Below, piece by piece: positions 1-63,167 of a stretch of DNA of 64,000 bases (positions within the stretch are counted from its first letter, which is position 1; the number at the start of each line of letters is the position of its first letter). The notes under the pieces were generated by a model. That model saw only the letters and a list, made by a program, of their open reading frames with translations, had not been told where the DNA came from and did not search any database. A program made the position numbers and the translations under genes. Origin of the DNA: Erythroxylum novogranatense (taxonomy: Eukaryota; Streptophyta; Magnoliopsida; Malpighiales; Erythroxylaceae). Where the stretch lies: NCBI GenBank assembly GCA_029891385.1, contig CM057228.1:31438214-31502213 (forward strand), written 5' to 3'.

Positions 1-27
1 AGGATTTTCATGGGTTTCATCCCAAAG

Positions 28-33
28 GTAAGA
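28..33 (+). promoter_or_regulatory. Candidate 5' splice donor in the LTR leader
   Basis: CAAAGGTAAGA matches the plant donor consensus. The same position in the other long LTRs of this window also has AAGGTAAG, which argues against chance. Confidence 0.45.
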
Positions 34-571
34 AAATGTGATTTCTTTTGAAATTTTAGATGGGTTTTAGTGAAAATAGCTTAAGTTAGGCATGGGTAAA
101 GTTAGATAGGCTTTTCTCCATGCTTTCTTCTCCTAGAAATGTTTAATTTGGGTTATCATCATGTTAATTGGCTTATTATTGCTTAATGAAGGTGATAAGA
201 GGTTAGTATAACAAGAAGCAAGATCAAGTGATCAAATTCAAGGTTAAAGGATTAAGGTGGGTAATTTCTTAATAATTGAGTTAATGAACTTGTTAAAGTT
301 CTATAATAAATGCTATTGAATGCTTTAAAATGATTTATCAATGTTGCTTGTATTTCTTGGAATAGTTTAAATATATATGAAATATGAAAATGTGTATATA
401 ATTGTTGAACAAGTGAAAAATAGATTTGAATAAGTGATTTTAGGCAATTATGTGAAGATGAATGTTGCAAGACTCATTGAGGATTAATGTGTATGAAATG
501 CATGAATAATGTGAATTATGCGATATGCATGCTTGTTTGGGTTTGTGGTGGTCCCTCATGTGTGATAGGTG

Positions 572-700
572 CACCTGTCAAAATTATAGCCTTCTCCGGC
601 TGCCCATTAGTAGCAATGGAGCTCCTCACGGACTCCTTCATGTGTTCCACGACTACATGACCGCTCTGCGAAATGTGTAGTACGTCCTGTTTGGATCCAC
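572..700 (+). promoter_or_regulatory. Conserved downstream LTR module
   Basis: It contains GGTGCACCTGTC, then ATAGCCTTCTCC and GCTGCCC, then GGACTCC. The same ordered blocks occur at 10036-10110, 45110-45245 (reverse), 53770-53860 and 56760-56880 (reverse), in LTRs that are otherwise well diverged. The function is unknown. Confidence 0.6.
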
Positions 701-2155
701 CCAAACCATCTTTTATGTGATTATGTGATATGTTTGATTAAGTTGTTTTTGTATGTTATATTGTTTGGTAATTGCCTTTGATAAATTGATAAACCACTTT
801 ATATGTGCTTATGTGATAGCTTCATGTGTGAAAAGTTTTAAATAAAAATTGCAAAGGTTTTCATCAAGGAGATATTGGCTTTGAAATCAAGGAGTTTTGA
901 TGAAGTAAAAGCATTTTGAGCAATGTAAATTGTCCTTGATAAGTTTGAAAGATTTTTATCAATCTGAAAGTTGCTTTAAAAATGAGGGAATTAAGAACAT
1001 TTTTGCTTATTTCTTAATTATTAAGCTGTTAGCCACTGAGCCGTCGAGCTCACACCCCTTTCCCCCTCCATAGGTAACGAGCGGAAACTTCGAGTTCTGA
1101 TCTTGGATGAGGCATCACTTGATGTTTCTAATTTAGAAGTCCTTTTGGAAACAAAGAGTTGGGTTGTATTTTGGAGAATTGATCCACTTTGTATTTTCTT
1201 GACTATTGATCTTTTGGTCTGTAATCGGGCTAAATGCCCCCTAATGCGTTGTAATATCTCATATTGCTAATGCAAGTACAAGACTTTTAAGAGTTAAGGT
1301 TCTTTGTGCAAATTACATGTGCTTTGTATATCATGATATTGTTGTATGGTTTGATTTTTTGGCAAAAGAAGGGAATTGCGTTTGCTGATATTTTTGAGTT
1401 AAATCATAGGTTTATATGGATGGGTTGATGATGTTGAGGATTGAAATTTGTGAATATGAAGTTTTATGCAGGTGGTGAAGCTAGGATTAAAGTTTGGCTA
1501 GTTGTATTTTCAAGAGAAGTGCTGTCAAATTTTCCAAAAATTTGATAGAAACTTCACTTAGGATTTAATCCCTTTTAGAGCTTGAATTGGATCTGGAAGT
1601 CTTCGTGAAGATTGTTGTAGAAGTTCAGAACTTTCTAAGGGTATATAATTTGTCTCATTTGGACTTAGGATGAAGAAGTTATGGTGTTAGAAACACATTC
1701 AGTTACTGTTCATGCTGATATTTTTACTGTTCCATTGGTCATTATAGGTGCAACACATTTGAGTGAGCTTTTACCACCTTTAATGATAGAATTGAGTTTT
1801 GCATCCTTAACAAAATTTGTAGAGCATCTTGTTATCTTTCCAATGAGGTATAATATGCAAGTATTGGAGTTAGGAGTAAGAATTTATGAAGATTGGAAGT
1901 AAACAGTTAAAGTCATTTTGTTGTTCATATAGCTTGTGAGGTTAAGTTAGATTTGAGGACTAAGGATTGAATTCATGAATTTGATTAACCATTTAAGTTG
2001 TAATTTGTGAATTTGGTGAGTTGAACTTGGTGTTTAAGGTGTTATAAAGTGTTTATACGTTAGAATAAATTAAGTTTGTGAAAAATGCAAGTGGTTATGA
2101 AGTTAGATTGAATGTGAGATGTTTAGAAGAGGTTTTGTAGTTGGGAAGAATGGCA

Positions 2156-2337
2156 TGTCCGTTAAACGGACATGGATGTCTGTTAAACGGACAGCCTCAG
2201 GTGCAAAAACACCCCTTGGCCTGCCCATGTCCGTTAGATGGACTTGCATGTCCATTTAACGGACATTTTCGAAGCTTTTGGGACACTTTCACCCGAATGT
2301 GTCCGTTAAACGGACATGGCTGTCCGTTTAACGGACA
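2156..2337 (+). repeat. Array of six 17-bp palindromes, twin spacing 21 bp, period 72 bp
   Basis: The palindrome TGTCCGTTAAACGGACA or close variants starts at 2156, 2177, 2228, 2249, 2300 and 2321. This makes three twins with 21 bp between members and exactly 72 bp between twins. It reads as a tandem duplication of a 72-bp unit with two palindromes, lying about 680-860 bp before the LTR 3' end. Confidence 0.92.
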
Positions 2338-3014
2338 GCTACGGGAAAGATGGTAAGTTTTCGAATTTATAGAGGCCTAATCTTGTTTTGTGGTCTTCAT
2401 TAAAGTTGTATATCTAGATGTCTACTTTCTAATGGTCAAAAACTAACGAATTCTGATTTGTGGATCAAAAGTTATGGAGATCGCGCCAAAAGAGTTTCAA
2501 ACTGTTTTAGGGCATGAACATACTTGACTCTTTGGGGCATAAATTCCCCATCCGACCTTCAATTGAGGCGAGGCTTAAACCATTATATTCCTAAGACATA
2601 TATCTTCCTATCCACAAAAATTGGTATCATTTTGAGTCAAATTGAAAAATTTTACATTAAAGTAAGTGAGAGGTCGGTTTGGAGATCATATTTGGAGTAT
2701 GAGCTCTTTTAAGATTTTTAAGCATAACTTGAGTTATACAACTCCTTTTGAGGTGATTCTTGTTGCGAAACGAACTTGAGGCATAGAGCTACAACTCATA
2801 TGAATAAGTCAACTTATGATTTTGGTGTTTAAATAGTGTACGCTCGCCACGAATATAGAGGTACAACTAAGGATCCTGTGAGGAAATAAGCACAAGGCTT
2901 TAGGACTCCGGAATTAGGCTCTGGATTTGGGTCCAATAGATGTGGAATTAAAGCTAGAATAAGAGTATTAAGTTATAAGCAGTTGGGGTCCGGTCTCTGG
3001 ATCGGGTTCCAACA

Positions 3015-3584
3015 AAATATGACCTAACACATGATTATGTTATTCCATGTAACTCTTAGTAACTAAGTTGTAAATGCATAGAAATGAATATGATAAGGCT
3101 AAAGCTTGTGCTACTCAAGGCTGAAGTTTCTATAAAGAACATGGTCTAGAACACGATTGTGTCCTAGACTGTCTCTTCTAACATTGAAGGTTTTCTAAAA
3201 AAATATGAATGTGTTCTAATCCCTATCCACTACGAAAACCCTAATTTTTATCTAGTATTTAAGGAGTGCTCCTACATAGCTTTAATTTATTTTTTATATC
3301 TTTGTTTATTAAAAGTGTGTCTTTTCATTATTCTTTATCAAACTTTAAACTTATGAAACAATTCTTTCTTTATAATGTTCTAAATACTTAATGAACTTAG
3401 TCCTTGATTTTTTATAATTAACATGTTGATTCTTTTTATTTCTGATTTAGCCTTCTTACTACAGTTCAAGCTTGTTTGTGGGTTCTCTAAGTATTTATTC
3501 CTAGGTAAGTTCATATCAATATGACACCCCATGCAAGTCCATCATTTATCTAAAATGTAATGTGTGATTGCACAAGTATGTCAT
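3015..3584. other. AT-rich stretch, probable LTR remnant
   Basis: No gene is visible. A TATTTAAGGAG box at 3256 and loosely repeated AACACGATTGTGT-like phrases near 3020 and 3150 resemble LTR promoter regions, but I could not pair it with another copy in the window. Confidence 0.3.
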
Positions 3585-6500
3585 TGATAAATGATTAAAA
3601 AATATATTGATATACTCACATTTAGTGTTTTTTGCTTTTTATTTAATAGTTTTGTAGTGTTTTTGGTACTTATTTCACTTCAAGTTTGTTTGTAGGTGAT
3701 AATTGCCTTCATAGGTCAAGAGGAGATGTATTTGAGTGAAATTATGGCATGGAATGGAAGAATTGGAGCTAGTTTGTAAACATGTGGAGCTTAAATAACA
3801 CAATTCCTACTTGTGTGGAGTTATATGCTTGTGTATCTTGATATACAAGGCTATGATTATTGTCCGTGTAAGTCTTTGTGACAGTGTAAAGTCATGATTT
3901 AAGGTATTTTTATAGATACATGATCACCTACATAATCGTGTAAGTGATCATGTATATCCCCAAAATCTTAGTTTTTACTATAAAAGGATATTATTAAAGG
4001 CTACATAAAAAGGAGGCAAACTGGAAGTTTTTTTTAGTTGTAAAAAACATAAATAAGAGACAATTATGAATAAAGGAGGAGAAAAACATGAAGATTAAGT
4101 CATAAGATCTGATAGACATAGATGAAAACATGAAGATTAAGTCATAAGATCGATAGACAACATCCTTGATCAAATTACAATAAGATTTTATTAGAGACAA
4201 AAAGGAGATATAGGTTAGGAATTTTTTATTTCTATTTGTTCTTTTGAATATTTGTTATTGGATTTATTTTCTATATATAGGAACTAAATTATTAGTCCCT
4301 AGGTGTAATGAACCTAAGTTGTGATGATAATATGATATAATATTTTATTGATGCGGTTTTATTGATGATTTATTATGATTAAATTAAGTGTTATTTTCTT
4401 GAACTAATATATCTAAAATATTATTCCAATATTTGATTTCACAATTTTAAGATTAAGAAATCGTTTTATGTTAATAGATCTACCATAATTGGAAGGATTT
4501 GCATGCAAGCGTAGAGATTGCTCAACATAAATCCTCGAATTAAGGTTAAATGATAAGTGCATATTTTCTAATATTTATGTTTCAATTATTCTTTTTTTAT
4601 TCCTCTTATTGATTTAATTATTGGGACTTAATTTGATTTAATATTTCCTTGTAGGGAATTATAATTTTTACATGATGTGGCAAATTTAACATCAAAAGGG
4701 AACGACGTGGACCAATGAATAATCAACAATCAGCCAAGAGATCATGAGGGCAAGCGTTTTTTTTCAAGGCAACATATGGAGGAAGGTAATTAAATGGTTA
4801 CAGTAGAGGCAACGTTGGAGGGATTAAGTGAAACGCAGATGGAGATGCGTTTTGGCTCAAAACGCATACACAGGGGACGAAAAACGCAGGCAAAAGGAAC
4901 AAGTAGCAGAGAGGAATTAAAAGGGTTGTGACACTTAATTGTCACGTCAATCAGCAACAGTAGAGAAGAATAAATAGGAAGCAACCATGCAGCGTTTTTG
5001 GAAGCCACAGGAACGACGACGCAGAGGTAAAAACGCAAATGTCAGCAGGCACAAGGGACACGCAACAGAAACGACGACGCTTCAGCAGACGCATAAAAAG
5101 GATTTAAGAGCAAAACGTAGCGTGGAGCAGAGAGGCTTTAGGGGTTTTACATTGACGTAGACCCTTAATTGTCTAATCGGAGCAACAGTGGACAGTGAGA
5201 GTAACAACTGTGAGTGGTGCGACACGGTGAAGAAGGAGGCGGCGGCTGTGCTCATATTTTTCGATAAAAAATCACGCAACAGTGAAAAGAAAAGAACGAA
5301 ACAGGAGAAAGCTACGAACAACGGCAATTTTGGAGAGGAACAGTGTCGGCGCGAGCTGGAGAAGAGTTTGAGCTTGAGAGGAATAACATCAGAGACTAGA
5401 AGAGGAGTGACGGTAGCAGCAGCTTCTGTGGATTCTGTCTTATAGTTTTTCTTCTTTTCCTTATTATTTAGACTATGTTAATTAATAATCTTGTTTTGTT
5501 TAATTCCGTTATGAGTAGCTAAACTGTTTTAGTCGGGAAATTCTAATTGTTATGCTTTGACTCGTGAGACCTTATTGTTCTAATTATTTGGTTTATAATA
5601 TTCGTACTGTTTCTATTTTACTATCATTGTTTATTAATTGATTCTGCGATTAGGGCCCGATTGTAGAGTCAGTTAATTTGCATATCGCCAACTGATTTAC
5701 TTGGTGGTGTTAACTAGGTGATTAATGTTTGTGGCAATTGGCACTAGGACATAATACTTGTCTGATTTCGTGTTAAGAAACTTGTGATCTAACTAGATGA
5801 AGCATGAGTCAGTGCGTAGTCAGTTAGGGTTAGTGTTTCTTTAGAGTTTAATGTTGTTAATTAATTGAATCTCGGAGAGAGTCTCGAAGGGGTTATTTGT
5901 TAATTAGGAAATAGTCTAAAGGAGTTTCTTTGATTGTTCTAAAATTAAGAAGAAACGAGGGAGCCAGAGGTAGTTGGTAACCATAGCTAACCTATTATTA
6001 AATCAAAGAAAATAATTGAGTCGATGATCGCGGTCTATGCATAATTAGGAATTTCCTGGCTAAGTTGTCGTTTATTGAGTTAATCAATTTTATTTGAGTT
6101 CTTTGCTAGTTGAATCATAGTTATTATTATTTTTTAATATTAGTTGAGTTAATAATTTATTAGTGATTAGTTTAATTAGTAGTTTTAGCAGAAAACTCCA
6201 AAACCCCCTTTTAATTAATTTCATTCGTTCTTTGGCATTTGAATAGAATCAATTTATTCCATTATCTGTGGATCGACCCTATTTACCACTGTGTGTAATT
6301 TATATTTATTTGGTGTTTGGGAATTATTTTTGGTGGATTCGACACCCATCATTAAACCTAATAGTGAAATTCACGAATCAACAATATAATATTAGGGTTT
6401 TTATCTAAAAAGAGATTTCAGTTAATCAACCGAGGATTAGTTGTTAATAGTATTGATAATTGTATTAACATAAGATAGAAATTTTCATGATCCAATAATA

Positions 6501-24043: not shown

Positions 24044-24650
24044 TAGTCGACCAGCTTCGAGATCGACTTATAGTAGAGTCCGAACCGAGGTCCCAAGGAT
24101 CTCTTATTGACTACCGATCGATCGTAGTCGATCTGTGCTAATGGCGAGTAAGGGTCTCAAGGATCTTGTCTTAGCGACCCGACCGACCGTAGTCGATCTA
24201 TTGAGATGCCGAGCGAGGCGAGCGAGGATCCCAAGGATCTTATTTTGGCGACCCGACCGACCGTAGTCGATCTATGGAGATGCTGGGCGAGGCGAGCGAG
24301 GGTCCCAAGGATCTTGTCTTGGCGACCCGACCGACCGTAGTCGATCTATGGAGATGCCGAGCGAGGCGAGCGAGGGTCCCAAGGATCTTGTCTTGGCGAC
24401 CCGACCGACCGTAGTCGATCTATGGAGATGCCGAGCGAGGCGAGCGAGGGTCCCAAGGATCTTGTCTTGGCGACTGACCGACTCGTAGTCGATCTATGGA
24501 GATGTCGGCGAGGTCCCAAGGATCTTGTCTTATGACCCGACCGACCGTAGTCGATCTATGGAGATGCCGAGCGAGGCGAGCGAGGGTCCCAAGGATCTTG
24601 TCTTAGCGACCCGACCGACCGTAGTCGATCTATGGAGATGCCGAGCGATG
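24044..24650. repeat. 74-bp tandem array in the Tat 3' region
   Basis: TAGTCGATCT recurs at 24125, 24190, 24264, 24338, 24412, 24486, 24548 and 24622, so most steps are exactly 74 bp (one is 65 and one 62). Each unit holds GACCCGACCGACCG and CCCAAGGATCTTGTCTT. The array lies between the convergent 3' ends of the antisense gene and integrase. Satellite-like arrays in the 3' untranslated region are typical of Tat/Ogre elements. Confidence 0.93.
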
Positions 24651-41757: not shown

Positions 41758-42148
41758 TGTTGGACCCTAAAATTTTTTATTATTATTGATTTTTTTTAGT
41801 TGAGTCATTAAATTAGCAAGTATGAATAGAAATTAGGAATTTGAAATTAGAATGAAGTGTTGGAATTAAGTTAGAATTAATATGGTGTTTAATGGGTTAA
41901 GAGAGTTAGTAGGCTTGTGTTAAAAGAAAGAAGGGGTAAATATTGAAAGACAAGTTTAATGAAGGGTAAAATGGGGAGAGAGCCTAATAAAAAGGGGCTT
42001 AAAAATAAGAAGAAGAAGAGAGAAAACATGGGAAAGAGAGAAGAGAAGAGACAAAAACGTGAGAGAAGAAGAAGGAAAGAAGAAAATCGTGGGAGAAGTT
42101 AGGAAAGGGAGAAAAGAAGAAGAAAAGAAAGGAAGTCATCTTGTCAAG

Positions 42149-42420
42149 GTAAGTTTATCTTCTTCATCTTGCTTTGTTAGAGAAAGAGTTAGAGAGAAAA
42201 AGAATTTTGTGTAGAGAATGGGTGTTGTATTGGATGAAGATGATTTAAGGGAACCCATTTGATTTTAAAGTTTCTAAGCTAGGTTTTGGATTTTCTAACT
42301 TAGATAGACCATGGGTAAGTTAATGCTAAACCCAATTTAACAATTATTTCATTTATTGTGATGTTGAAGTTTTAGGGGTTTTATTAAATTGGAATTTAAC
42401 GAAGAATTGGTTTGTTTTAG
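42149..42420 (+). other. Candidate intron in the LTR leader
   Basis: Donor CAAG|GTAAGTTT and acceptor TTTGTTTTAG|GA are both kept in the 3' LTR copy (53155-53422). The leader before it is almost pure A/G. Confidence 0.45.
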
Positions 42421-42765
42421 GAAATCAAGAAAATCCTACCCAAGAGTAAGGGGAAGGGCCAAATTGAGTTTGGATTTTCAAGAGTTATAAGGTAGGTAAT
42501 TTATTTATAGTTATTGTGTAATGAGAAAAATGTCTTGTGTGTGTATTATGTACTAAAATGCCTTGCTTTGAAATGTTTTGATGTGAAAATTGCATTACGA
42601 TGTATGATATTTGATAAAAATTGAATTGTAAGTATGATTATGTTATGCCTTGGAATTGTATCATGGCATTTTGATTAAATGGAAAGAAGAAAAAGCATGT
42701 GAATATAAACTTGTGATTGATGGAATTGAGAATGAGATTTGATTGTGTTTGAGCGAGAGAGGAAA

Positions 42766-45700
42766 TGTTGGAACCCCTCCCAGGTGCATCATACGTCTGA
42801 TGTCCCACGTGACATCTGGACGCGCAACCCACGAGGGAGGGATTCCTCACCACGATGGAAAACTTGTTTCGGCATTAAATCTGCGAAATCATGAACCTTG
42901 TGCTCATAACCTTGCAGGGTCCTTAGATGTAACTCCACATTCGTGGCGAGCGCACACTATTTAGTCACCAAAATCATAAATTGACTTATTCATATAAATT
43001 GTAGCTTTATGCCTCGAGTTTCTTTTGAAACAAGAATCACCTCAAACGGAGTTATATAACTCAAGTTATGCTCAAAAAGCCTAAAAGAGCTCATACTCCA
43101 AATATGATCTCCAAACCGACCCCTCACTTATTTTAATGGAAAATTTTTCAATTTAACTCCAAATGGTTCCAAGTTTTGTGGAGAGAACTATATATGTCTT
43201 AGGAATCTAATGGTTCAAGTCTCACCTCAATTGGAGGTCGGATGAGGGATTTATTCCCAAAAGAATAGATTATGCTCACACCCTAAATCAATTTGAACCT
43301 CTCTTGGCGCGATCACTATAACTTTAGATTTATAAATCTGATTTCGTTCGTTTCTAGACCATTTGAAAGAAGACATCTAGATATACAATTCTCATGAAGA
43401 CCACAAAACACTATTCGGCCTCTAACAATTTCGAAATTCAACATCTTTCCTGTAACTGTCCGTTAAACGGACATCCATGTCCGTTTAACGGACATGTACG
43501 GGTGAAAGTGGCCCAAATGATTCAAGATTGTCCGTTAAAAGGACATTCAGGTCCATCTAACGGACATGGGCAGGCTAAGGGGTGTTTTTGCACCCGAGGA
43601 TGTCCGTTTAACGGACATTGGATTTTCCAAAACCCCAATGCCTCTCCCAAACCTCTCACCTTCAACCTAACTTCATAACCATTTATACACTTCCCAAATT
43701 TACTTGTTCTAGAGCCTAAACACTTCATAACACCTTCAACTCCAAGTTCAACTCACCAAAATCACAAATTACAACTTAAATGGTTAATCAAATCCACAAA
43801 ATTTCAATCATTAATCATCAAAGTTATCATAAACACAAACCATATAACCAGCATAATGTACAGTAACTGTTATCTTCCAATTCCCATAACTTTTTACTCC
43901 TAACCCCAATACTTGCATATAATACCTCAATGGAAAGATAACAAGATGCTTTAAAACTTTAATGAAGGATGCAAAATTCATTTCCATCATTAAAAGAGGT
44001 AAAAAGTCACTCAAAGGCACTGCTCACATAAAGACCAAATGAAACAGTAACATAGCATTATGAACAGTAACTGAATGTGCTCCCATCCTCATAACTTCTT
44101 CATACTAATTCCAAAAGTGACAAATTCTATATCGTTGGAAAGCTCTCAAAAAATAATATAATCTTCAAGAAGACACCTCAATTCAATTCAAACACTAAGA
44201 GGGTCTAAAACCTATGTGAAGTTTCTGTCAAATTTTGCAAAAATTTGACAGCACCTCCTTTGAATATTCAACTAGCCAAACTTCAATCCAAATACTATCA
44301 CCTGCATAAAACTTGATATTCACAATCTTCAATCTTTCAACTACCAACCGAATCCAAAAATCCCACAACTACTCAAATGGCAGCAAACGCAAGCTTATAT
44401 CTCTACTCGTTCTCAATCCATAAAGCAAGCCTCAACCCACTCTATTTACCAATTCAAACCATACAATGATGCATTTGTATAAAACATATGCAAAGTACAT
44501 GAATTACATTAAAACCCAACACCCTTGCATTACATGAACAATATGAGTTCTTACAAAGCTTTAGAGGGAATTTAGCCCGATTACAACCCAAATAACCAAA
44601 AGTTAAAATACAAAGTGAATCAATTCTCCAAAATGCAACCTAATACTTTATTTCCAAAAATGACTTCTAAAGTAAAAGCATCGGGGTGATGCTTCAATCC
44701 CAATATCAGAACTCGGTTTCCGCCGTCACCGTGGAGGGAAAAGGGATGTGAGCTCGACTGCTCAGTGGGTAACAGCTTAATAATTAAGAAATAAGCAAAA
44801 ACATTCTTTATTTATCATTCTCAAAGCAACTTTCAGATTGGTAAAAACCTTTCAAAATCATCAAAACTTGTCACAATTTCATTTCATCATTCATTTCCAA
44901 AGCGAAGATCACATTGATCGAAATACTTTCAATTTATCAAAACCTCTTGTAAAACTCATTTCATCACACCAATTACACATCAAAATCACATATGCACAGA
45001 GAAAGTGGTAAATCAATTTATCAAAAGCATTTACAAAACAACATAACATACAAAAACAACTTAGACAAGCATATCACATAATCACATATAAGTTGGTTTG
45101 GGTGAGTCCATCGGGACGTACTACACATTTCTGCAAAGCGGTCATGTGTAGTCGTGAACACATGTGGGAGTCCGTGAGGAGCTCCATGGCCACTAGCGGG
45201 TAGGCGGGAGAAGCCTATAATTTGACAGGTGCACCTATCACACATAAGGGACCACCACAAACCCAAACAAGCATGCATATCACATAATTCACACAATTCA
45301 TAAACATTAGCCACAAATGGCTCTTGCAATTATTCACTTTCACATTATTTCCCAAAATGTCATTTTTCCGAAATCAAGTATCCAAACTTTTTCACTTCAC
45401 AAATCATTTCACAATTATTTCCAAAATGTAAAAACATCTTATACAAGTTCAAACCATTACAAAGAATCATTTATAAAACTTTATAAATCATTTGAAAGTA
45501 TTAGATAACATTTATTTCAAAATAATTGAGTAGCTTATTATCTCAATCATTGTAATACTACCCACCTTAGTTCCTTTAGCTAGGAGCTTGAACAATTGGC
45601 CTTTCCTTTCACTTCAATTCCCTCTCTTAACCTTCATCAAACATAAAATCCCATAGGAAGCATGAGATGTTAAAATTGGCCATTCTAAGGAGATGAAAAC

Positions 45701-46395
45701 ATGAAAATTAACCCATCTAACTTTACCCATACCTAACTTAAGCTATTTTCACTAAAACCCATCCATAATTCCAAAAGAATTCATATTTCTCTTACCTTAA
45801 AGAGAGACCCACGAAAATCTACTCTTTGCTTCTAATGGAGGATTTCCCTTTCCTCTTCCTTTTTCCTTCTTAAAGGACTCTCCAATCTCTTCTAAAAAGC
45901 AAGAAATAATAAATCTCTAACCTCTTTTCTTCTCTCTTCTTCTTCTTGTTCTTCTTCTTCACCAACGAAAATCCCCTTTTTCTTTTCTTCCTTCTTGAAA
46001 TTTCGTAGGCCACCCTCTTAAAAGACTTAACTCATTTGCTTTATACTTAAAACCTAGCCTAAAACGACGTAGTTTTACTCATTCCCTTTAAACAAGTAAT
46101 TCTTGTATTCTTTCCTAACCTATACAATCATAAGCTTGGTCTTCCATTTAACTTCCTTCTTCATGTTTTAAAACAAGCTCAAAAGACCAATTTAGCCCTC
46201 CCTAAAAACCTTGAGTCTTTAAAACATAGATGATATACCTAAATTGCCCTCAAGCCATTTTATTCCTTTTAATTTCTAACAATTTACTCCACTCAAATTT
46301 AAACTTAATCCCTCATTTAATTTCCATTTCTTAAGAGCTAACACCTCAAAATAAGTTGGACAATACCTCAAAATAATTTAGACATGCTTAAATAA
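42766..46395 (-). mobile_element. LTR inserted in the 5' LTR of the chromovirus
   Basis: It is the reverse-oriented relative of 1-3014. The plus-strand left end is TGTTGGAACC. The right border is near 46343 (GAGCTAACA) or up to about 46395. Compared with the intact copy at 53756-53785, about 27 bp of target are missing and no TSD is visible, so the junction was altered. It has a TATA box (46039-46045), a donor (45790-45796), the conserved module (45110-45245) and a palindrome array (43457-43617). No coding sequence. Confidence 0.8.
43457..43617. repeat. Palindrome array, five copies
   Basis: 17-bp units start at 43457, 43478, 43529, 43550 and 43601, again 21 bp within twins and 72 bp between twins. 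The sixth expected site (43622) is lost. Confidence 0.9.
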
Positions 46396-47302
46396 ATAAA
46401 GCCTTCTCCTAACTAGTCGTTTGTGACACACGAGATCCAAAAAGTGGACTCGTTTCGTTCACGGTATAAACTTCGATTTTTTCATTTTATTCTACGGAAC
46501 CCTCGAGCCATTTGTTTATGCATTTGCATTTTGATGTGTTAAGTTATGATGAAATTAAGTATTATTCTTTGATATTAAATTATATTCGATATGTTTTATG
46601 TGATGATGTATTGAACTATAAGTTGTGAATGTTGAACTTACATTGTTGGATCAAGATAAGATGAGTATGCTTAGATGAATAGATGCATATATGTTTGATT
46701 GTGTGGCTCATTTCCAATGACTATAAATATATTAACCACTGAACTGTGTAGGTCAACCCATCATTTTCCCTCCTCAGGTGCAGAATGAGAAGATTAACGA
46801 TCCTTGCAAGGCATTCAGAAACTCCAATATAGCTAGAAATCTTTTGTACTAAGTTAGTGACTAATTTGGATAGCTTTATAGGCATATCAAACATGAGCAT
46901 CCTTTTGTATTTTGTATTAAGTTTGATGTGTGTGTTGATATGTAAGTAAAGCTTGTTCAAACATTGATTTTTTTTAGAAATGAGAATGAGAACTTGCAAC
47001 GTTACTTTTTCAATGACTATGTTATTTTTAAAGGTTAAGTATGATGGATGTACATATTCTTCTTTGATGAGATTGCCAATTATTGCTAGTATTATAATAG
47101 CATGTTAGAGTTGAAAAGATTGTATGTGATGAATATTTTGAGTTGAGATTCAAGAGTTAATAAGATGTATTTAGTAGTTAAATGGATATGAAGTGATATT
47201 GCATTATAAGGGGTGAATTTGGGGAGGTTATGAGAGAAAAATGATGCTAGAATGGATGTTGGAAGTGTTGGAGAGCCTTTGAAGGGGTTTGGGAATTCCC
47301 CA

Positions 47303-47482
47303 TATCCATTAAGTGGACATTAAGTCTGTTAAATATACCTTTTGGAGTCTAAAAAGACCCCCAGCCCAGTCCATGTCCATTAAATGGACATTAGGTCTGT
47401 TAAATGGTCCTTCTCAGGTCTGGAAAGCATCCCAGGCCTGTCTATGTCTGTTAGACGAACATGTATGTCCGTTTAACGAACA
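47303..47482. repeat. Palindrome array in the chromovirus 5' LTR, six copies
   Basis: Units start at 47303, 47323, 47374, 47394, 47445 and 47466. Twin spacing is 20-21 and the period 71 bp. Symmetry is eroded in several copies by C-to-T type changes. Confidence 0.85.
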
Positions 47483-47912
47483 TTCGCAGGATAGCTACAA
47501 TAAATTATGATTGTAACCTTCTAGAGGTCAAATCTCATTTAAGTTCTTCACAAAAGTTGTAGATCTAAAAGTCCTCTTTCAAACTATCTAAAAACAACAT
47601 CAATCCGACATCTGTAGTGAAAGTTATAGCAATTGCACCAAGACAGGTACCATGCAATTGAAGACATAAACATGTCGGATTCTTTTGGGCATAACTTCAT
47701 CATACGGCCTCCAAATGAAGTGATTCTTGAAGCAATGAATTCCTAACTCATTTTTTACCTTTTCACAAAAATTGATAGCCTTTGGTGTTAAATTGAAGAA
47801 GATTGATTCCAAGGAAATGATGGTTCATTGTAATAACCCTGCAAGGAAACTCGCTCACGTTTTATGACTCCGAAACAATTGTTGGGCTCTGAAAATGGAG
47901 CTCAACATCTTG

Positions 47913-47930
47913 TGGTATCAGAGCTAGGGC
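47913..47930 (+). other. Primer-binding site, initiator Met-tRNA
   Basis: TGGTATCAGAGCTAGGGC lies 5 bp after the LTR end, the standard chromovirus site. Confidence 0.9.
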
Positions 47931-49935: not shown

Positions 49936-51390
49936 TCGAGGAGTTACCAAGACTACCGTCACCTAGTGAAATTGAATTTTCCATTGAGCTTCTTCCGAGA
50001 ACAATGCCAATCTCGATTCCACCTTATAGAATGGCTTCGAAAAAATTAAAAGAACTTAAGGAGAAATTGGAAGATTTATTGGAGAAAGGTTACATTAGGC
50101 CTAGCTCTTAACCTTAGGGAACTCTGGTCCTTTTTATGAAGAAGAAAGATGGATCGTTAAGAATGTGTGTGGACTATCGGAAGCTCAATCAGGTCACTAT
50201 CAAGAATAGATATCCGCTCCCGCGCATAGATAATTTTTTTGATCAGTTACAAGAGGTAAGAGTCTTTTCTAAGATAGATTTGAGATCAGGTTACCACCAA
50301 TTGAGGATAAAGGAGTCTGATGTGTCAAAGACTACTTTTAGAACACGTTATGTCCACTTTGAGTTCTTGATCATGCCTTTTGGGTTAACAAATGCACCTA
50401 CAGCCTTCATGAATTTGATGAATAGAGTTTTCAAGCCTTTTTTAGACCAATTTGTCATAGTCTTTATTGATGACATATTGGTTTATTCCAAGAATGACAA
50501 GGAGCATGAGGAGCATTTGAGGCTTGCTTTGAAGACATTGAGGAAGGAAGAGTTATATGCCAAATTTGATAAGTGTGAATTCTGGATAAGGGAAGTAGTG
50601 TTCCTTGGACATCTAGTTTCGAAAAAAGGAGTGCATGTGGATCCGAGAAAAATAGAAGCAGTTATGAAATGGGAAGCACCCAAGAATGTAGCCGAAGTGA
50701 GGAGTTTCTTAGGTTTGGTTGGATATTATAGGAGGTTTGTGGAGGGTTTTTCTATGATAGCAGCTCCATTTTCCAAACTGACAAGGAAGAATCAAAAGTT
50801 TGTGTGGACAGATGAATGTCAGAAGAGTTTTGAGGAGCTTAAGTGCAGATTGACGAGTACACCAATTTTGACTTTTCCTTCAAGTAATGATGGATACATA
50901 ATGTATAGTGATGCATCGAGGAAGGGATTAGGGTGTGTGTTGATGCAAGGAGATAAGGTGATTGCTTATGCTTCTAGGCAATTCAAGTCTTATGAGATAA
51001 ACTATCCTACACATGATTTGGAGTTGGCTGCCATAATTTTTTCATTGAAGATTTGGAGAGATTACTTGTATGGAGTCACTACTAGGGTGTTTACAGACCA
51101 CAAGAGCCCTAAGTACCTGATGAGCCAGAAAGAATTGAATTTGAGACAGAGAAGATGGTTAGAGCTCCTTAAAGATTATAATTTGATGATAGACTACCAT
51201 TCAGGAAAAGCGAATGTAGTAGCGGATGCACTGAGTAGGAAATTGGCTATGGCACATGTGGGGACAGTGTATCTTCCTTTGCTGAAGGAATTAACCAAAC
51301 TTAGGGTGACATTAAAACAAGCCGAATCTGGTTGTGTATTAGAAAATTTTAGAGTAAGGCCAACATTGAATAAGAAGATCAAGGAGTTGT
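49936..51390 (+). pseudogene. Reverse transcriptase and RNase H of the plus-strand chromovirus
   Basis: From 50136 the frame is open for 418 residues: [28 protein letters not shown], the catalytic F-I-D-D (50463-50474), and C-E-F-W-I. RNase H follows with Y-S-D-A-S, H-D-L-E-L-A-A, F-T-D-H-K-S and A-D-A-L-S-R, all acidic residues kept. Upstream, R-P-S-S is followed by stops at 50109. This is the best-preserved enzyme in the window; a TAG at 51390 separates it from integrase. Confidence 0.93.
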
Positions 51391-52502
51391 AGAAGCAAGA
51401 TGAGTATTTAAGCAGGCTTAGAAAAGAGATTAAAAGTGGTAAACCTTCTGAAATAAAGGTAAGGGAAGATGGATTGATGGTGATAGAAAACAGACTATAT
51501 ATTCCTGATATGCAAGAGTTGAAAGACAAGATTCTTGATGAGGTACATAATGCACCTTATGTAATGCACCCAGGAAGTACGAGAATGTATAGAGATTTGA
51601 AGGAGCATTTTTGGTGGAAAGGAATGAAGAAAGAAGTTACAAAATATGCTAAAAGATGCTTAGTGTGTCAGCAAGTCAAGGTTGAGCACCAAACACCTTC
51701 AGGCAAGCTTAAACTTTTATCGATTCCGGAATAGAAATGGGAGAAGATTACAATGGATTTTTTGATGGAATTGCCGAGGACTAGCAAGAAGCATGATGCA
51801 ATATGGTTGATTGTTGATAAGTTGACTAAGTCAGCACATTTCTTGCTAGTTAAACAGACAGATTTTTTAAATGCTTTGGCCAAAAAATATATAGATGAGA
51901 TAATTAGACTTCATGGGATCCCGAGTTCTATAGTCTCGGATAAGGATCCCAGGTTCACCTCTAGGTTTTGGGAAAGTTTGCAATAGGCTTTGGGCACAAA
52001 TTTACATTTTAGCACGACTTTCCATCCAAAAACTACATGGAATGATCACCTGCCTTTAATTGAATTTGCTTATAATAATTCCCATCACTCGGAGATCCAG
52101 ATGGCACCTTATGAAGCTTTGTACAACAAGAGGTGCAGAACTCCCATTTGTTGGGATGAGGATGGTGAAAGGAGGCTTTTAGGGCCTGAGTCGGTACAAA
52201 TCACAGTTTATAAGATTAAACTGGTGAAACAGAGACTTCAAGCAACTCAAGATAGAATGAAGAGCTACACAGATGTGCATAAAAAGGAGATGGAATTTGA
52301 AGTTGGAGACAAGGTGTTTCTTAGAGTTTCTCCATGGAAAGGAGTTTTGAGATTTGGTAAGAAGGGCAACCTTAGTCTAAGATACATAGGCCCATATGAG
52401 ATCATTGAAAAGATTGGGCCTTTAGCTTACAAGTTAGCTTTGCTAGCGGAATTGTCTAAGATTCACAATGTCTTCCACGTATCGATATTAAGGAAGTACT
52501 GA
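51391..52502 (+). pseudogene. Integrase of the plus-strand chromovirus, catalytic Glu deleted
   Basis: The HHCC domain is intact (H-N-A-P-Y-V-M-H-P-G-S, C-L-V-C-Q-Q; 51540-51675). The core has I-T-M-D-F and I-V-S-D-K-D-P-R-F, but near 52035 F-H-P-K-T runs straight into W-N-D-H-L-P-L-I-E-F. About 28 residues, among them the DDE Glu, are missing. Stops lie at 51732 and 51984. The C-terminal part (R-T-P-I-C-W, V-G-D-K-V-F-L-R-V-S-P, G-P-Y-E-I) is open to 52500. Confidence 0.9.
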
Positions 52503-52763
52503 TCAGATCCTTCATACATAGTTCAACCTTCAAAGGTTCAGTTAAGAGAGGATTTGCCATATGAGGAGCAACCATTGAAAATCCTAGATTCGAAGGAAAA
52601 TGTTTTGAGAAACAAGATTGTAAAGCTGGTTAAAGTCTTATGGAGGAACCATTCGACAAAGGAGGCAACATGGGAGCCTTTGGAAGCAATGAAGGAGAAG
52701 TATCCACACCTCTTCGTAGACTTAAGTAAGAATTTCGAGGACGAATTTTTTTTAGGGAGGAGA
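52503..52763 (+). pseudogene. Chromodomain of the plus-strand chromovirus
   Basis: The frame reads L-V-K-V-L-W-R-N-H-S-T-K-E-A-T-W-E-P, then K-Y-P-H-L-F and ends in acidic residues before the polypurine tract. Known role: it binds modified histones and steers integration to heterochromatin. A TGA at 52501 separates it from integrase. Confidence 0.85.
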
Positions 52764-52765: not shown

Positions 52766-54801
52766 TGTTGGACCTCGAATTTTTTTATTATTATTGATTT
52801 TTTTAGCTAAGTCATTAAATTAGCAAGCATGAATACAAATTAGGAACTTGAAATTAGAATGAAGTGTTGGAATTAAGTTAGAATTAATATGGTGTTTAAT
52901 GGGTTAAGAGAGTTAGTAGTCTTGTTTTAAAAGAAAGAAGGGGTAAATATGGAAAGCCAAGTTTAATGAAGGCCAAAATGGGGAGAAAGCCTAATAAAAA
53001 GGCGCTTAGAAATAAGAAGAAGAAGAGAGAAACGTGGGAAAGAGAGAAGAGAAGAGAAAAAAACGTGAGAGAAGAAGAAGGAAAGAAGAAAATCGTGGGA
53101 GAAGCTAGGAAAGGGAGAAAAGAAGAAAAAAAGAAGGGAAATCATCTTGTCAAGGTAAGTTTATCTTCTTCATCTTTCTTTATTAGAGAAAGAGTTAGTG
53201 AGAGAGAATTTTGTGTAGAGAATGGTGTTGTATTGGAAGAAGATGATTTAAGGAAACCCATTTGATTTTAGGGTTTCTAAGCTAGGTTTTGGATTTTTTA
53301 ACTTAGATAGACCATAGTTAAGTTAATGATAAACCCAATTTAACAATTATTTCATTTGTTGTGATGTTGAAGTTTAAGGGTTTTATTGAATTGGAATTTA
53401 ATGAGAAATTGATTTATTTTAGGAAATCAAGAAAATCCTACCCAAGAGTAAGGGGAAGGCCAAATTGAGTTGGATTTTCAAGAGTTATAAGATAGGTAAT
53501 TTATTTATAGTTATTATGTAATGAGCAAAACGCCTTGTGTGTGTATTTTGTGCTAAAATGACTTGCTTTGAAATGTTGTGATGTGGAAATTGCATTATGA
53601 TGTATGAAATTTGATAAAAATTGATTTGTGAGTATGATTATATTATGCCTTGGAATTGTATCATGGCATTCTGATTAAATGGAAAGAAGAAAATGCATGA
53701 GAATATAAACTTGTGATTGATGGAATTGAGCATCAGATTTGATTGTATTTGGGCGAGAGAGGAACTATTTCGTAGTCATGTGCATGTCGACATAAAGCCT
53801 TCTCCTGGCTGCCCGTTTGTGGCACACGAGATCTAAAAAATGGACTTGTTTTGTTCACGGTGTAAACTTCGGTTTCTTCATTTTATTTTACGGAACCCTC
53901 GAACCATTTGTATGTACATTTGCATTTTGATGTGTTAAGTTATGATGAAGTTGAGTATTATGCTTTGAAGTTAAATTACATCCAATATGTTTTATGTGAA
54001 GATGTATTGAACTATAAGTTGTGAATGTTGAACTTACATTGTTGGATCAAGATAATATGAGTATGCTTATATGAATAGATGCATATATGTTTGATTATGT
54101 GGCTCATTGCCAATGGCTATAAATAGATTAGCCTCTGAGCTATGTAACTCAACCCATCATTTTCCCTCCTCAGGTGTAGAACGAGAAGATTAACGATCTT
54201 TGCAAGGCATTCAAAAACTCTAAGATAGTTATAAATCTTTTGTACTAAGTTAGTGACTAATTTGGATAGCTTTATAGGCATATCAAACATGAGCATCCTT
54301 TTGTATTTTGTATTAAGTTTGATGTGTATGTTGATATGTAAGTAAAGCTTGCTCAAATATTGATTTTGTTTAGAATTGAGAATGAGAACTTGCGAAGTTT
54401 CTTTTTGTATGACTATGTTATTTTTAAAGGTTAAGTATGATGGATGTACATATTCTTCTTTGATGAGATTGCCAATTGTTGCTTGTATTAGAATAGCATG
54501 TTAGAGTTGGAAAGATTGTATGTGATGAATCTTTTGAGTTGAGATTCAAGAGTTAATGAGATGTATTTATTAGTTAAATGGATATGAAGTAATATTGCAC
54601 TAGAAGGGGTGAATTTGGGGAAGTTATGAGTGAAAAATGATGTTAGAATGCATGTTGAAAGTGTTGGAGAGGCTTTGGAAAGGTTTGGGAATCCCCTATG
54701 TCCGTTAAACAGACATTAAGTTCATTAAACGGACCTTCTCGGGTCTAAAAAGATCCCCAGCCCAGTCCATGTCTGTTAAACGGAAATTAGGTCTATTAAA
54801 C
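52766..54801 (+). repeat. 3' LTR of the plus-strand chromovirus, truncated by insertion
   Basis: It aligns with 41758-42765 plus 46396 to about 47400. It stops inside the fourth palindrome of its array (54790-54806 expected). Its conserved module is at 53770-53860. The Lys/Glu-rich open frame at 52966-53265 is the purine-rich leader, not a gene. Confidence 0.9.
54699..54801. repeat. Palindrome array interrupted by the next element
   Basis: Units start at 54699, 54719, 54770 and 54790. The last is broken after TTAAAC at 54801, where the next LTR begins. Confidence 0.85.
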
Positions 54802-55404
54802 TGACGGACCCCGTTCCCAAAGCCCAACTTTCGTATTCCTGAAACCTTGCGCTTACTACATTGCAGTGCTATATGCTGTTGTTCCATAACAATGATGAGC
54901 GCACACTACCTAAACATCAAAATCACATAATGACTTGTTCATATCAATTATAGCTTAAAGCCTCACGTTCGTATAGAGGCAAGAATCACCTTAATCGGAG
55001 TTATATAACTCAAGATACACTCCAAAAACCTAAAAGAGTTCATACCTGAAACATGCTCTCTTAACCGACCCCTCACTTACTTTAATGTAAACTTCCTTAT
55101 TTCAACTCCAAATGATACCAAACTTTATGGAGTGGAAGTTATATGTCTTAGTAATCTATTGGTTTAAGTCTCACCTCAATTGGAGGTCGGATGAGGGAAT
55201 TATTCCCAAAAGGGTGGACTATGTTCATACCTAAAATCGAATTGAAACTGTCTTGGCGCGATTACCATAAAGTTTTATATAGATGTTGGATTAAGTTCGT
55301 TCTTAAACCATGAGAAAGAAGACATCTAGATCTACAACTCTCATGAATACCATAAAACGAGATTCGGCCTCTAAATAAGTCAAAAATCACCATTTTCCCG
55401 TGGC

Positions 55405-55586
55405 TGTCCGTTAAACGGACACACATGTCCGTTTAACGGACACGTTCTGGTGAAAGTGTACCAAATGCTTTGAAATTGTCCGTTAAATGGACATGCAAGT
55501 CCGTTTAATGGACATGGGCAGGCGAAAGAGTGTTTTTGTACCTGAGGCTGTCTGTTTAATGGACATTCATGTCCGTTTAACGGACA
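55405..55586. repeat. Palindrome array, six copies, period 72 bp
   Basis: Units start at 55405, 55426, 55477, 55498, 55549 and 55570. The 21-bp and 72-bp steps have no exception. Confidence 0.93.
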
Positions 55587-57711: not shown

Positions 57712-58004
57712 CTACTTACTAACTTACTTAAGCCTATAGGCCTAAAGCCCAACTCACTTCTTCTTCCTTCCTTCTTATATTCTCTTTAAACTACTCAAGC
57801 CCTTTTATCTTTTAAGCCCATCTTATTTCCTTTCCTTTCCTACCTCATTAAGGCCCAACTAACATATTTAATCTCATTAACTCACCACCTAACTCTTTAA
57901 TGCTATCACATACTAATTAATGTCAACTCAATTAATGCTAACATAACTTACTCAATTAATCTAATCATGCTTAATTTTAAAAAGAAAAAAATTTGGGGCT
58001 AACA

Positions 58005-58034
58005 TTTCTCCCCCCCCCCCCTTTAAGAAATTTC
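58005..58034 (-). other. Polypurine tract
   Basis: On the minus strand AAATTTCTTAAAGG leads into an uninterrupted G run and GAGAAA, directly before TGTTAGCCCC. Confidence 0.9.
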
Positions 58035-58180
58035 ATCCTCGAAATTCTTACCTGATTCATTGAAGAGGTGTGGATACTTCTCCTTCATTGCATCCAAAGG
58101 TTCCCACGTCGCCTCTTCAACTGCATGATTTCTCCAAAGGACTTTAACTAGCTGAATTGTCTTGTTCACGAGAACTCTCT
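58026..58180 (-). pseudogene. Chromodomain of the second chromovirus
   Basis: The minus strand reads Q-L-V-K-V-L-W-R-N-H-A-V-E-E-A-T-W-E-P-L, then K-Y-P-H-L-F and ends N-F-E-D-E-I-S-stop at 58026. This stretch is intact; upstream frames are disturbed. Confidence 0.88.
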
Positions 58181-59640
58181 CCTTGCTATCCGAGGTGCCA
58201 CCGGCATCTCCTCATAGCTCGATCATCACTCACCGAACCTCCGAGGTCTCAATAATGTGAGAAGGATCGATATGTACCTTCTCAACATGGAAACATGAAA
58301 ACATCATGGATCCGAGACAACTCGAGGCAATGCCAACTCAGTAAGCTAACGGCCCGATCCTCTCTAGAATCTCATACGGACCCACATACCGAGGACTTAA
58401 CTTGCCTTTCTTGCCAAACCTCATGACTCCCTTCCATGGAGACGTCTTCAGGAATACTTTGTCACCTATTGCATACTCCATCTCCTTCCTGTGAGCATCT
58501 GCATAACTCTTCATTCTATCCTCGAAATGCTTTTAAGTCATTTGCTGATCAAACTAACCTTATCCATTGTCATCTGAACCAATTCTGGTCCTACTAGTTT
58601 CCTTTCACCTTCTTCATCCCAACATATTGGAGTCCTGCATCTCCTGCCATACAGCGCTTCATAAGGAGCCATCTGGATGCTCGAATGGTACGAATTGTTA
58701 TAGACAAATTCGACCAACGGCAAATGTTCATCCCATGCTCTTTTGAAGTCCATGACACACGCCCGAGCATTCCTCTAGGTCTGAATGGTCCTCTCGGTCG
58801 ACCATCCGTCGAGGATGAAATGTCAGTCTTGAAACTCAACTTAGTCCCTAGAGCTTCTCGCAACTACTCGTAATCTCGACGTAAATCGAGGATCCATCGG
58901 ATACTATAGAATCTGAACTCCATGCAACCTCACTACCTCATCAATGTATTTCCTTGCTAACACCGCAACGAATCATGCATTTAATTGCCAAAAATGGGCC
59001 GACTTGGTTAACCGATCTCTGATAACCCATATGGCATCATGCTTCCTACTAGTTCTGGGTAAACCCATCAGAAAATCCATAGTGATCCTTTGCCATTTCC
59101 ATTCAGGAATGGACAATGGCCTTAACAAGCCTGAAGGTGCCTGGTGTTCAGCCTTGACTTACTGACACACTAGACATCTGCTCACATATTCTGCTACATC
59201 CCTCTTCATGCCTTTCCACCAGAAATGCTCCTTCAATTTCCTGTACATCCTGGTGTTGCCTGGGTGTATGGAATAAGGCGCGTTATGTGCCTCATCCAAG
59301 ATCTCATCCTTGACTTCCTTAACATTCGGAATACACAATCTACTTCCGACTACCATAAGTCCATCATCTCTCACTACCACTTCAGACTGCTTGCCATTCT
59401 GGATTTTCTCACGAAGCTTACTCAATTCTGCATCCTGCTCCTGCAACTCCTTGACTTTCTCTCTAAGTATCGGCCTCACCCTGAATTGAGCAAGAATGCA
59501 TTCTGGCTTATCCTGCTTCAAGCTTATCTTAAGCTTAGCCATCTGTTCCAACAAAGGCAAGTAAACTGCCTGGACATGAGCTACGGATGACTTCCTACTC
59601 AATGCATCCGCTACTACATTTGCCTTGCACGATGGTACTC
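58181..59640 (-). pseudogene. Integrase of the second chromovirus
   Basis: The HHCC region (H-N-A-P-Y-S-I-H-P-G-N, C-L-V-C-Q) is intact up to 59159, where Gln became a stop (CAA to TAA). The core is broken by frameshifts, but S-E-R-T-I-Q-T with the catalytic Glu is still visible near 58800, and W-D-E-H-L-P-L-V-E-F and R-T-P-I-C-W-D-E are clear at 58600-58730. The C-terminal part toward the chromodomain has several small indels. Confidence 0.88.
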
Positions 59641-60860
59641 AATCATCAAATCATAGTCCTTAAGTAACTCAATCCACCTTCTCTCGCCTCAAATTCAGCT
59701 CTTTACGCTCAAGAAATACTTAAGACTCTTGTGATCCGTGAAGATCCTAGTCTGCACCCCATACAAATAATGTCTCCAAATTTTCAGGGAGAAAATTACT
59801 GCTGCTAGCTCTAAATCATGAGTAGGATAATTCAACTCATATGGCTTCAACTGTCATGAAGCATAGGCTATCACTCTGTCGTTCTGCATTAACACACAAC
59901 CTAAGCCTTTTCTCGAAACATCACCGTAACACACAACCTACGCCTTTCCTCAAAACTCTTCTGACATTCTTCGCTCCAGATAAACTGATGATTCTTCCTT
60001 AACAACTTAGTTATCGGCGCAGCTATCATGGAGAATCCCTCCACAAATCTCCTGTAATAACCTGCCAGGCCTAGAAAACTCCATACCTCTTTTACTGTCT
60101 TAGGCTCTTGCCAATTCACCACTGCTTCTACTTTTCTCGGATCAACATGGATCCCTCTACTGGAGATCACGTGTCCTAGGAAAACCACTTCATGCAGCCA
60201 AAATTCACACTTGCTGAATTTGGCATATAGCTCTCTTTCCCTTAATCTTTGCAACACTATTCTGAGATGCTTTGCATGTTCCCCTTCATCCTTGGAATAG
60301 ACCAGAATGTCATCGATAAATACTATGACAAACTGATCTAAAAACTCCTGAAAAACCCTGTTTATAAGGTCCATGAATGCAGCCGGAGCATTGGTCAGTC
60401 CGAATGGCATGACCCTGAACTCATAGTGCCCGTAACGGATCCTGAAAGCCGTCTTGCTAACATCAGACTCCCTGATTCGGAGTTGATGATAACCTGACCT
60501 GAGATCTATCTTCGAAAAGACCCTTGCTCCCTGCAACTGATCAAACATATCATCTATCCTGGGCAGAGGATACTTGTTCTTAATCGTCACCTTGTTGAGT
60601 TTCCTGTAATCAATACACATCCGCCATGTTCCATCCTTCTTTTTAACAAATAGAAATGGCGCTCCCCAAGGTGATGAACTTGGCCTGACAAATTGCTTTT
60701 CTAATAATTCCTGCAATTGCTCCTTAAGCTCCCTCAACTCAGTTGGAGCCATCCGGTATGGTGGTATTGAAATGGTCATGGGTCCGGAATCAAGTCAATT
60801 GCAAACTCAATTTCCCTCACCGTGAAGCAAACTCGTAACTCTTCCGAAATACTTCTGGGA
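59641..60860 (-). pseudogene. Reverse transcriptase and RNase H of the second chromovirus
   Basis: RT is open from 60779 to about 59960: [33 protein letters not shown], the catalytic F-I-D-D (60309-60320) and [10 protein letters not shown]. After C-Q-K-S-F-E-E about 35 residues, with the first RNase H Asp, are replaced by a short duplication (near 59910-59945). RNase H then resumes with G-L-G-C-V-L-M-Q-N and T-H-D-L-E. Confidence 0.9.
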
Positions 60861-61420
60861 ACTCCCTCACTATAGGGTAATCCTCCAACCTTCCTACTTT
60901 CACCTCTGGATCCACCACATGTGCCAAAAAGGCCTCACCTCCCTGGCCCATCATCCCGTCACCAGCAAAGCGTAAATGATCCTCGGTCTTTGGCATCTTC
61001 CCGTCCCCTTAAAGACCACTTTCTCTCCATTTCCCGTGTCAAACTCCACTTCCTTACGGCCACAATCTAACTTTGCCCTAGATTTTCCATGGCATCCATA
61101 CCTAGTATGACATCTAGTCCCTTTAGGTCAGAGGTAACAAGTCTACTACCAATCTAGCACCATCGATCTTCGAGCTCGCACTTCTTGTAGACTAAATCGA
61201 TCACCACCTTACTCCCTAAAGGAGTACTAACAACCGAAAATTATCCATAATCTCGTGGATTCACAAGATGCATATTCGGACTTGAGGACACAAATGAATG
61301 TGTAGAGCCAGATCAATCGTAACATAAATCAATTAAATAATTGAACCATACCACTATAACTCCGGAGCAACAAGGCGTCTTCCCCGGTCATAGCAAATAC
61401 TCTAGCCGGTGCTCGACCTG
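60861..61420 (-). pseudogene. Protease region of the second chromovirus, strongly decayed
   Basis: On the minus strand P-A-R-V-F-A-M-T near 61390-61410 marks the usual gag/protease border, and E-A-F-L-A-H-V-V-D near 60930 the border to RT. No clear catalytic D-S/T-G motif remains; many indels. Confidence 0.6.
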
Positions 61421-62829: not shown

Positions 62830-63167
62830 TGTGGGGACCCGTTCCCGAGCCCAACTTCCGTATTCACAAACCTTGCGCTTACTACATTGCGGTGCTATAT
62901 GTCGTTGTTCCATAAAAATGATGAGCGAACACTACCTAAACATAAAAATCACATACTGACTTGTTCATATCAATTATAGCTTAAAGCCTCACGTTCGTAT
63001 AGAGGCAAGAATCACCTAAATCGTAGTTATATAACTCAAGATACACTCCAAAAACCTAAAAGAATTCATACCTGAAACATGCTCTCTTAACCGACCCCTC
63101 ACTTACTTTAATGCAAACTTCCTTATTTCAACTCCAAATGATACCAAACTTTATGGAGTGGAAGGTA
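62830..63167 (-). repeat. 5' LTR remnant of the second chromovirus
   Basis: 338 bp homologous to 54802-55141; alignment ends sharply at 63168. Confidence 0.9.

Follow-up and report, generated by a model that had tools for sequence, protein, structure and literature searches.

What does an element gain, if anything, from carrying ordered sets of short palindromes in its long terminal repeats (LTRs)? The stretch of DNA analysed here (the window, 64,000 nt) contains five arrays of the palindrome TGTCCGTTWAACGGACA, all in LTR sequence of related Ty3/gypsy elements. A palindrome scan allowing at most three mismatches returned 41 strand-matches, equal to 22 separate sites, most of them matched on both strands, whereas 100 dinucleotide shuffles gave a mean of 0.08 matches and a maximum of 2. 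A chance origin of the matches is thus excluded. Array A1 (2156..2337, + strand) consists of six 17-bp palindromes in three twins, as the initial annotation had described, starting at 2156, 2177, 2228, 2249, 2300 and 2321; three of them are perfect, and the remaining ones depart from the consensus by 1, 3 and 1 changes. The scan also confirmed the arrays annotated in four other LTR locations. These are A2 (43457..43617, −), with five palindromes and a first twin that lacks one member; A3 (47303..47482, +), with six heavily decayed palindromes starting at 47303, 47323, 47374, 47394, 47445 and 47466; A4 (54699..54802, +), with three complete palindromes and the beginning of a fourth; and A5 (55405..55586, −), with six palindromes in three twins. 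The copies do differ in orientation, as had been remarked, but this mostly reflects the orientation in which the LTRs inserted.

A1 lies in LTR A, of which the 3′ part was placed at 1..3014 (+) from its match to LTR B and from junctions, its 5′ end being unplaced; its terminus near 3014, in TTCCAACA, resembles the end of LTR B. LTR B carries A2 and belongs to an insert at 42763..46395 (−), clearly bounded on the left and approximately on the right, that lies within the 5′ LTR of element 1. This 5′ LTR, split by the insert, runs from TGTTGGACC to CTCAACA (41758..47907, +), contains A3 and is followed at 47913..47924 (+) by TGGTATCAGAGC, which we take to be the element 1 primer binding site. The element 1 pol pieces (50118..52745, +), broken by stops, comprise reverse transcriptase, RNase H, a Tf2-1-like SH3 domain and a chromodomain, and the 3′ LTR with A4 extends over 52767..54802 (+) as far as the insertion of element 2, which cuts A4. 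A5 lies in an element 2 LTR. The element 2 pol (57978..61049, −) matches that of element 1 and shows reverse transcriptase and an integrase zinc-binding domain in two open pieces. Domain matches were RVT_1, RT_RNaseH and SH3_Tf2-1 for element 1 and RVT_1 and Integrase_H2C2 for element 2, with reverse transcriptase before integrase (order taken from coordinates), and the element 1 chromodomain (PF00385) scored 27.5 bits against a cut-off of 25.1. By their gypsy pol and the element 1 chromodomain, the elements are Ty3/gypsy elements of the chromovirus type; with their long LTR and chromodomain they may be Tekay-like. The relatives of one pol piece were flowering plants wherever a species was given, among the 120 of 7990 scored relatives listed. 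LTRs A and B have no pol inside the window. The LTRs bearing A1, A2 and A5 match one another at 71–81%, and element 1 matches LTR A at 65%.

Some further features of the window were recorded along the way. The end of the element 2 LTR falls inside the fourth A4 palindrome (54798-54807); nested insertions are described as having little preference for LTRs and a weak one for palindromes (PMC6911290). The match of the other element 2 LTR ends near 63168, where a sequence starting TGTAACATCCCC begins (63166-64000), perhaps another insertion. Window GC is 37%, which, like the plant relatives of the pol piece, gives the window the look of flowering-plant DNA. A GC-rich tandem array of 7 copies with a 74 bp period is found at 24143-24648.

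The spacing of the palindromes was central to the initial annotation, which described exact 21-bp twins repeated every 72 or 71 bp. Measured start to start in LTR orientation, the intervals are 21, 51, 21, 51 and 21 bp in A1 and A5, giving a twin period of 72, and 51, 21, 51 and 21 bp in A2, where the lost member of the first twin aligns as a 21-bp deletion. The intervals in element 1 are 20, 51, 20, 51 and 21 bp (A3) and 20, 51 and 20 bp (A4), with a period of 71. The exact 21 bp therefore holds for A1, A5 and A2 and is not general, because the first two twins of element 1 are 20 bp. Both twin periods are as annotated, the value of 71 arising from the 20-bp twins, while the between-twin interval is 51 bp in nine of nine cases. 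The spacing indeed hardly moves; as evidence, however, it is uninformative, since adjacent LTR DNA has equally few indels. Within the array we counted 0, 1 and 1 indels for A1-A5, A1-A2 and A2-A5, compared with 2, 1 and 1 in about 507 downstream flank columns and 4 for each pair in about 460-650 upstream columns. Between the A1/A2/A5 group and element 1 there are 2 array indels in each of the three pairs, and about 310 downstream columns hold 4, 3 and 3. The check that had been named for the spacing claim, a comparison with flanking DNA, thus showed no extra constraint on the array when run within the window. At 10.5 bp per turn, 21 bp corresponds to 2.0 turns; successive twins are out of phase, as 72 and 71 bp correspond to 6.9 and 6.8 turns. 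Finally, the caution against counting five independent cases was well placed: A3 and A4 are one array copied, so that the sample, the LTR copies within the window, represents no more than four histories, which share a common descent.

The palindromes themselves were then compared with the surrounding DNA among A1, A2 and A5, a test that covers three LTRs and treats columns as independent. Palindromes differ at 2/85 (A1-A2), 6/102 (A1-A5) and 5/85 (A2-A5) sites, array spacers at 13/76, 13/80 and 17/76, and flanks at 218/1161, 245/965 and 244/966 (19–25%). With CpG columns dropped, the palindrome counts in the same order become 2/67, 3/82 and 3/67 and the flank counts 201/1107, 225/913 and 226/914, and palindrome and flank still differ (p = 3.9e-4, 1.5e-6 and 3.4e-5). 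For spacers against flanks the difference is small (p = 0.25, 0.03 and 0.18). Of the columns shared by all three LTRs, 80/85 are invariant in palindromes, 56/76 in spacers and 649/965 in flanks; palindrome 2 was left out of this count, as A2 lacks it. When the palindrome layout was slid across the flanks, none of the 601 overlapping placements exceeded 72/85 invariant columns. No invariant run is longer than the two of 19 bp at palindromes 1 and 5; that at palindrome 6 follows with 18 bp, tied with one flank run at 1825. When the three arrays are each paired with the decayed A3, 22/101, 22/101 and 18/85 palindrome sites differ, against 41/79, 45/79 and 36/75 in spacers and 104/310, 105/310 and 104/311 in downstream DNA.

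Homogenisation within arrays was not seen: palindromes at the same place in different arrays show on average 0.93 differences per 17 bp (14 comparisons), compared with 2.11 per 17 bp between palindromes inside one array (36 comparisons), the first palindrome of A2 being left out. Since the spacers have diverged, whole arrays are unlikely to have been exchanged recently. Not every palindrome is needed, because A1, A2 and A5 all have imperfect copies in third and fourth place, and A2 has lost one member.

Element 1 offers a decay control. The two LTRs of one LTR retrotransposon are identical at insertion, and the differences between A3 and A4 therefore represent decay. They amount to 17/63 in palindromes, 4/40 in array spacers and 79/908 in the upstream flank, a palindrome decay about three times faster than that of the flank (p = 4.7e-5). 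Fifteen of the 17 palindrome differences are transitions and 12 fall at palindrome CpG positions, while a stricter label, CpG still present in one copy, fits 4 of the 17; one copy keeps the consensus base in all 17. These decay counts differ from the between-lineage counts with p = 2.3e-6 (A1-A5) and 5.3e-8 (A1-A2). Judged by such comparisons, the palindromes are hot spots of change within a dead copy, yet across lineages no other part of the sequence is better preserved. This combination points to purifying selection having acted on the palindromes in the past, if not on all of them.

The claim that changes often hit the CpG was borne out, as 22/42 changes in 26 palindromes (the partial fourth palindrome of A4 left out) fall on positions 5, 6, 12 and 13, which are the two CpGs. 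A1, A2 and A5 contain 5.5-6.2 CpG per 100 bp, compared with 0.8-0.9 in the upstream LTR and 2.4-3.0 downstream, and the decayed A3 contains 1.7. The CpG changes look like decay after insertion, and methylation of the CpG and CCG in the arms would account for the decay of the dead copy. Compensatory change between palindrome arms, which had also been suggested as a mark of function, was not in excess: of the position pairs with changes on both arms, 4 still pair and 2 do not, and a further 30 changed on one arm only. Shuffling among the 26 related palindromes gave an expectation of 2.57 for the first class (P = 0.23, low power).

Sites for dimeric DNA-binding proteins typically look like this, with paired palindromes and two half-sites. 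We lean, with moderate confidence, towards the arrays being cis-regulatory, each 17-bp palindrome docking one dimer of a host transcription factor; the factor would act on LTR transcription and switch the elements on or off. The initial annotation had proposed paired sites for a dimeric factor, and this is still the best reading, although it now draws on palindrome conservation, taken as a sign of past selection for protein binding, while the arguments from spacing and compensation fail. A packaging or recombination role, the other suggestion made at that stage, is possible.

In A1, A2 and A5, GTC is kept in 34/34 half-sites, TGTC in 31/34, TT in 32/34 and the intervening CG in 25/34; the corresponding counts in element 1 are 11/18, 8/18, 16/18 and 6/18. 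The site for MYB proteins is CCGTT/AACGG. As a candidate it is weakened, as CCGTT is intact in 25/34 half-sites of A1, A2 and A5 and in 4/18 of element 1, compared with 34/34 and 11/18 for GTC; CpG mutability may be another reason for the low CCGTT counts, which keeps a chance for MYB. An auxin response factor (ARF) is our first candidate, because TGTC is kept while the next two bases vary, and inverted TGTC half-sites with 5 bases between them form an IR5 (TGTCNN-N5-NNGACA). We name it as a candidate, not as a conclusion. ARFs, which bind as dimers, favour TGTCGG and the spacings IR7/8; AtARF5 also binds IR5, IR6 or IR9 at lower affinity, and promoters with IR5/6/9 were weakly inducible in carrot cells (PMC10690724). 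The arrays thus resemble the auxin response elements described there in their inverted TGTC half-sites, their variable next bases and an IR5 within the AtARF5 range. They differ in having TGTCCG and a spacing of 5 instead of the preferred TGTCGG and IR7/8, and in a TTWAA that is conserved between the half-sites. The conserved TT beside the half-site is not explained by TGTCNN, and the low number of intact TGTC half-sites in element 1 counts against an ARF. Variation at the NN bases could come from CpG mutability alone, which, together with the kept TT, leaves other factors open.

In a more specific version, to which we give little credence, the array would be an auxin switch: up to 12 TGTCCG half-sites in three twins (IR5, 4 bp, IR5) would load an activating ARF, and methylation would silence and erode it. 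If true, the ARF would load inside the transcribed part of the LTR and the element would wake in auxin-rich or dividing tissue, and the methylated CpG and CCG bases would first shut the switch and then erode it.

Several other explanations have to be weighed against binding of a dimeric host factor. The array might act as RNA, forming hairpins in a long leader for packaging, dimerisation or translation control, which we consider unlikely though deserving of some weight. Compared with dinucleotide shuffles, the arrays fold strongly (z = -10.7 for A1, -7.9 for A5 and -4.3 for A3; A2 was folded without a z-score), but strong folding is expected of any palindrome array, and the whole-array folds predicted for A1, A2, A3 and A5 are not alike. 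A TATA-like CTATAAATA in the element 1 5′ LTR (46721..46729, +) stands 582 bp upstream of A3 and recurs at 54117, 582 bp upstream of A4 in the 3′ LTR (pattern only in both cases), and the array would therefore be inside the element 1 transcript. LTR A and the element 2 LTR have weaker TATA-like strings on both sides of the array, including downstream ones at 2828 and 55281, respectively, and a leader position is thus uncertain. Moreover, C>T changes on the sense strand, which would keep G-U pairing, are no commoner than G>A changes (12 and 13), and the lack of excess compensation between arms also speaks against a function as RNA.

A tandem repeat spread by duplication and without function, its sameness due to shared ancestry or homogenisation, seems to us improbable. 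All arrays share a common ancestor, the first two units of element 1 appear re-duplicated (TRF period 71), and spacing is no more constrained than in the flanks, all of which would fit. On the other hand, the palindromes are kept while spacers of the same units diverge, place-specific variants persist across arrays, and palindromes decay fast in the dead copy.

Could the array be mainly a target of silencing, with hairpins feeding small RNAs that direct methylation? Such a role has been proposed for the palindromes of maize Sireviruses (Bousios 2016, as summarised in PMC10760457), and the strong folding, the CpG-rich arrays and the decay at CpG positions after insertion would agree with it. 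However, a purely silencing site should not be retained by the element, and PMC10760457 itself supposes a cost of palindrome loss; we regard this explanation as very improbable. A coding repeat can hardly be entertained: both 21 and 72 are divisible by three, and A1 and A5 are crossed by frames open for 71 and 89 codons, but the 20- and 71-bp intervals break the frame in element 1, and when three translations of the arrays were used in a protein search, none of the 330 candidates sharing words with them reached E <= 10.

Placing the putative factor-binding arrays beside known systems, the closest design is that of the RM boxes, the LTR palindromes of Sireviruses. These are family-specific and number 8-32 per element; nearly all have CGG-CCG as their core, and they lie in CpG islands, some 37 bp ahead of the TATA box (PMC2829016). 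Both systems have short, multi-copy, CpG-rich LTR palindromes with CGG/CCG in the arms, and several RM boxes contain GTCCG or CGGAC (PMC2829016), as does the palindrome described here. Sireviruses, however, are Ty1/copia elements, whereas the present arrays belong to Ty3/gypsy elements with gypsy pol and a chromodomain. The order here is CCG-CGG in each palindrome, with CGG-CCG found only across a twin, and the RM boxes are just upstream of TATA, whereas the element 1 array follows its TATA-like string. The description of the RM boxes in PMC2829016 includes no twin layout. The arrays are thus not a Sirevirus motif, since superfamily and core order differ, and position may differ as well; we see them as resembling the Sirevirus arrays in design, but in another superfamily and with a paired layout. 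The rice element Retrosat2 is similar in its very long LTR, an early predicted TATA and an LTR that is mostly predicted R and U5; its tandem repeat is CTTTTT, and the main text of PMC3485330 does not mention palindromes. The 8 papers containing any of four palindrome strings included none, by title, on plant retrotransposons. No paper joined retrotransposon, LTR, auxin response factor, binding sites and TGTCGG in the literature covered, to which subscription papers mostly do not belong.

The twin pattern was also searched for in viral and prokaryotic DNA. The strict twin pattern gave 0 matches in viral_contigs, and the twin pattern gave 0 matches in genome_contigs; these collections are viral or prokaryotic. 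An element 1 pol piece gave 5 pattern matches in viral_contigs, 0 of them confirmed. The single 15-bp palindrome occurs in 15 contigs of viral_contigs, two of them with clustered copies: three exact copies of GTCCGTTWAACGGAC in L005 (8572-8641) and four near copies, one exact, in L004 (7021-7097). Each cluster lies within an ORF whose ends look by eye like a phage replication initiator, and the clusters are perhaps origin iterons, a convergence. A third contig, L012, has five scattered near copies (at most three mismatches, one exact) at 1682-5917 of an 8.4-kb stretch.

Plant gypsy elements have fast-evolving LTRs, in which the parts that an element needs are mostly unmapped. Comparing conservation between families with decay between the paired LTRs of a single insertion is a simple test for functional LTR sites, and it is usable genome-wide. 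If a host factor is found for the palindromes described here, gypsy and copia elements would both have built palindrome arrays with related half-sites, and the tissue in which these elements wake would be indicated.
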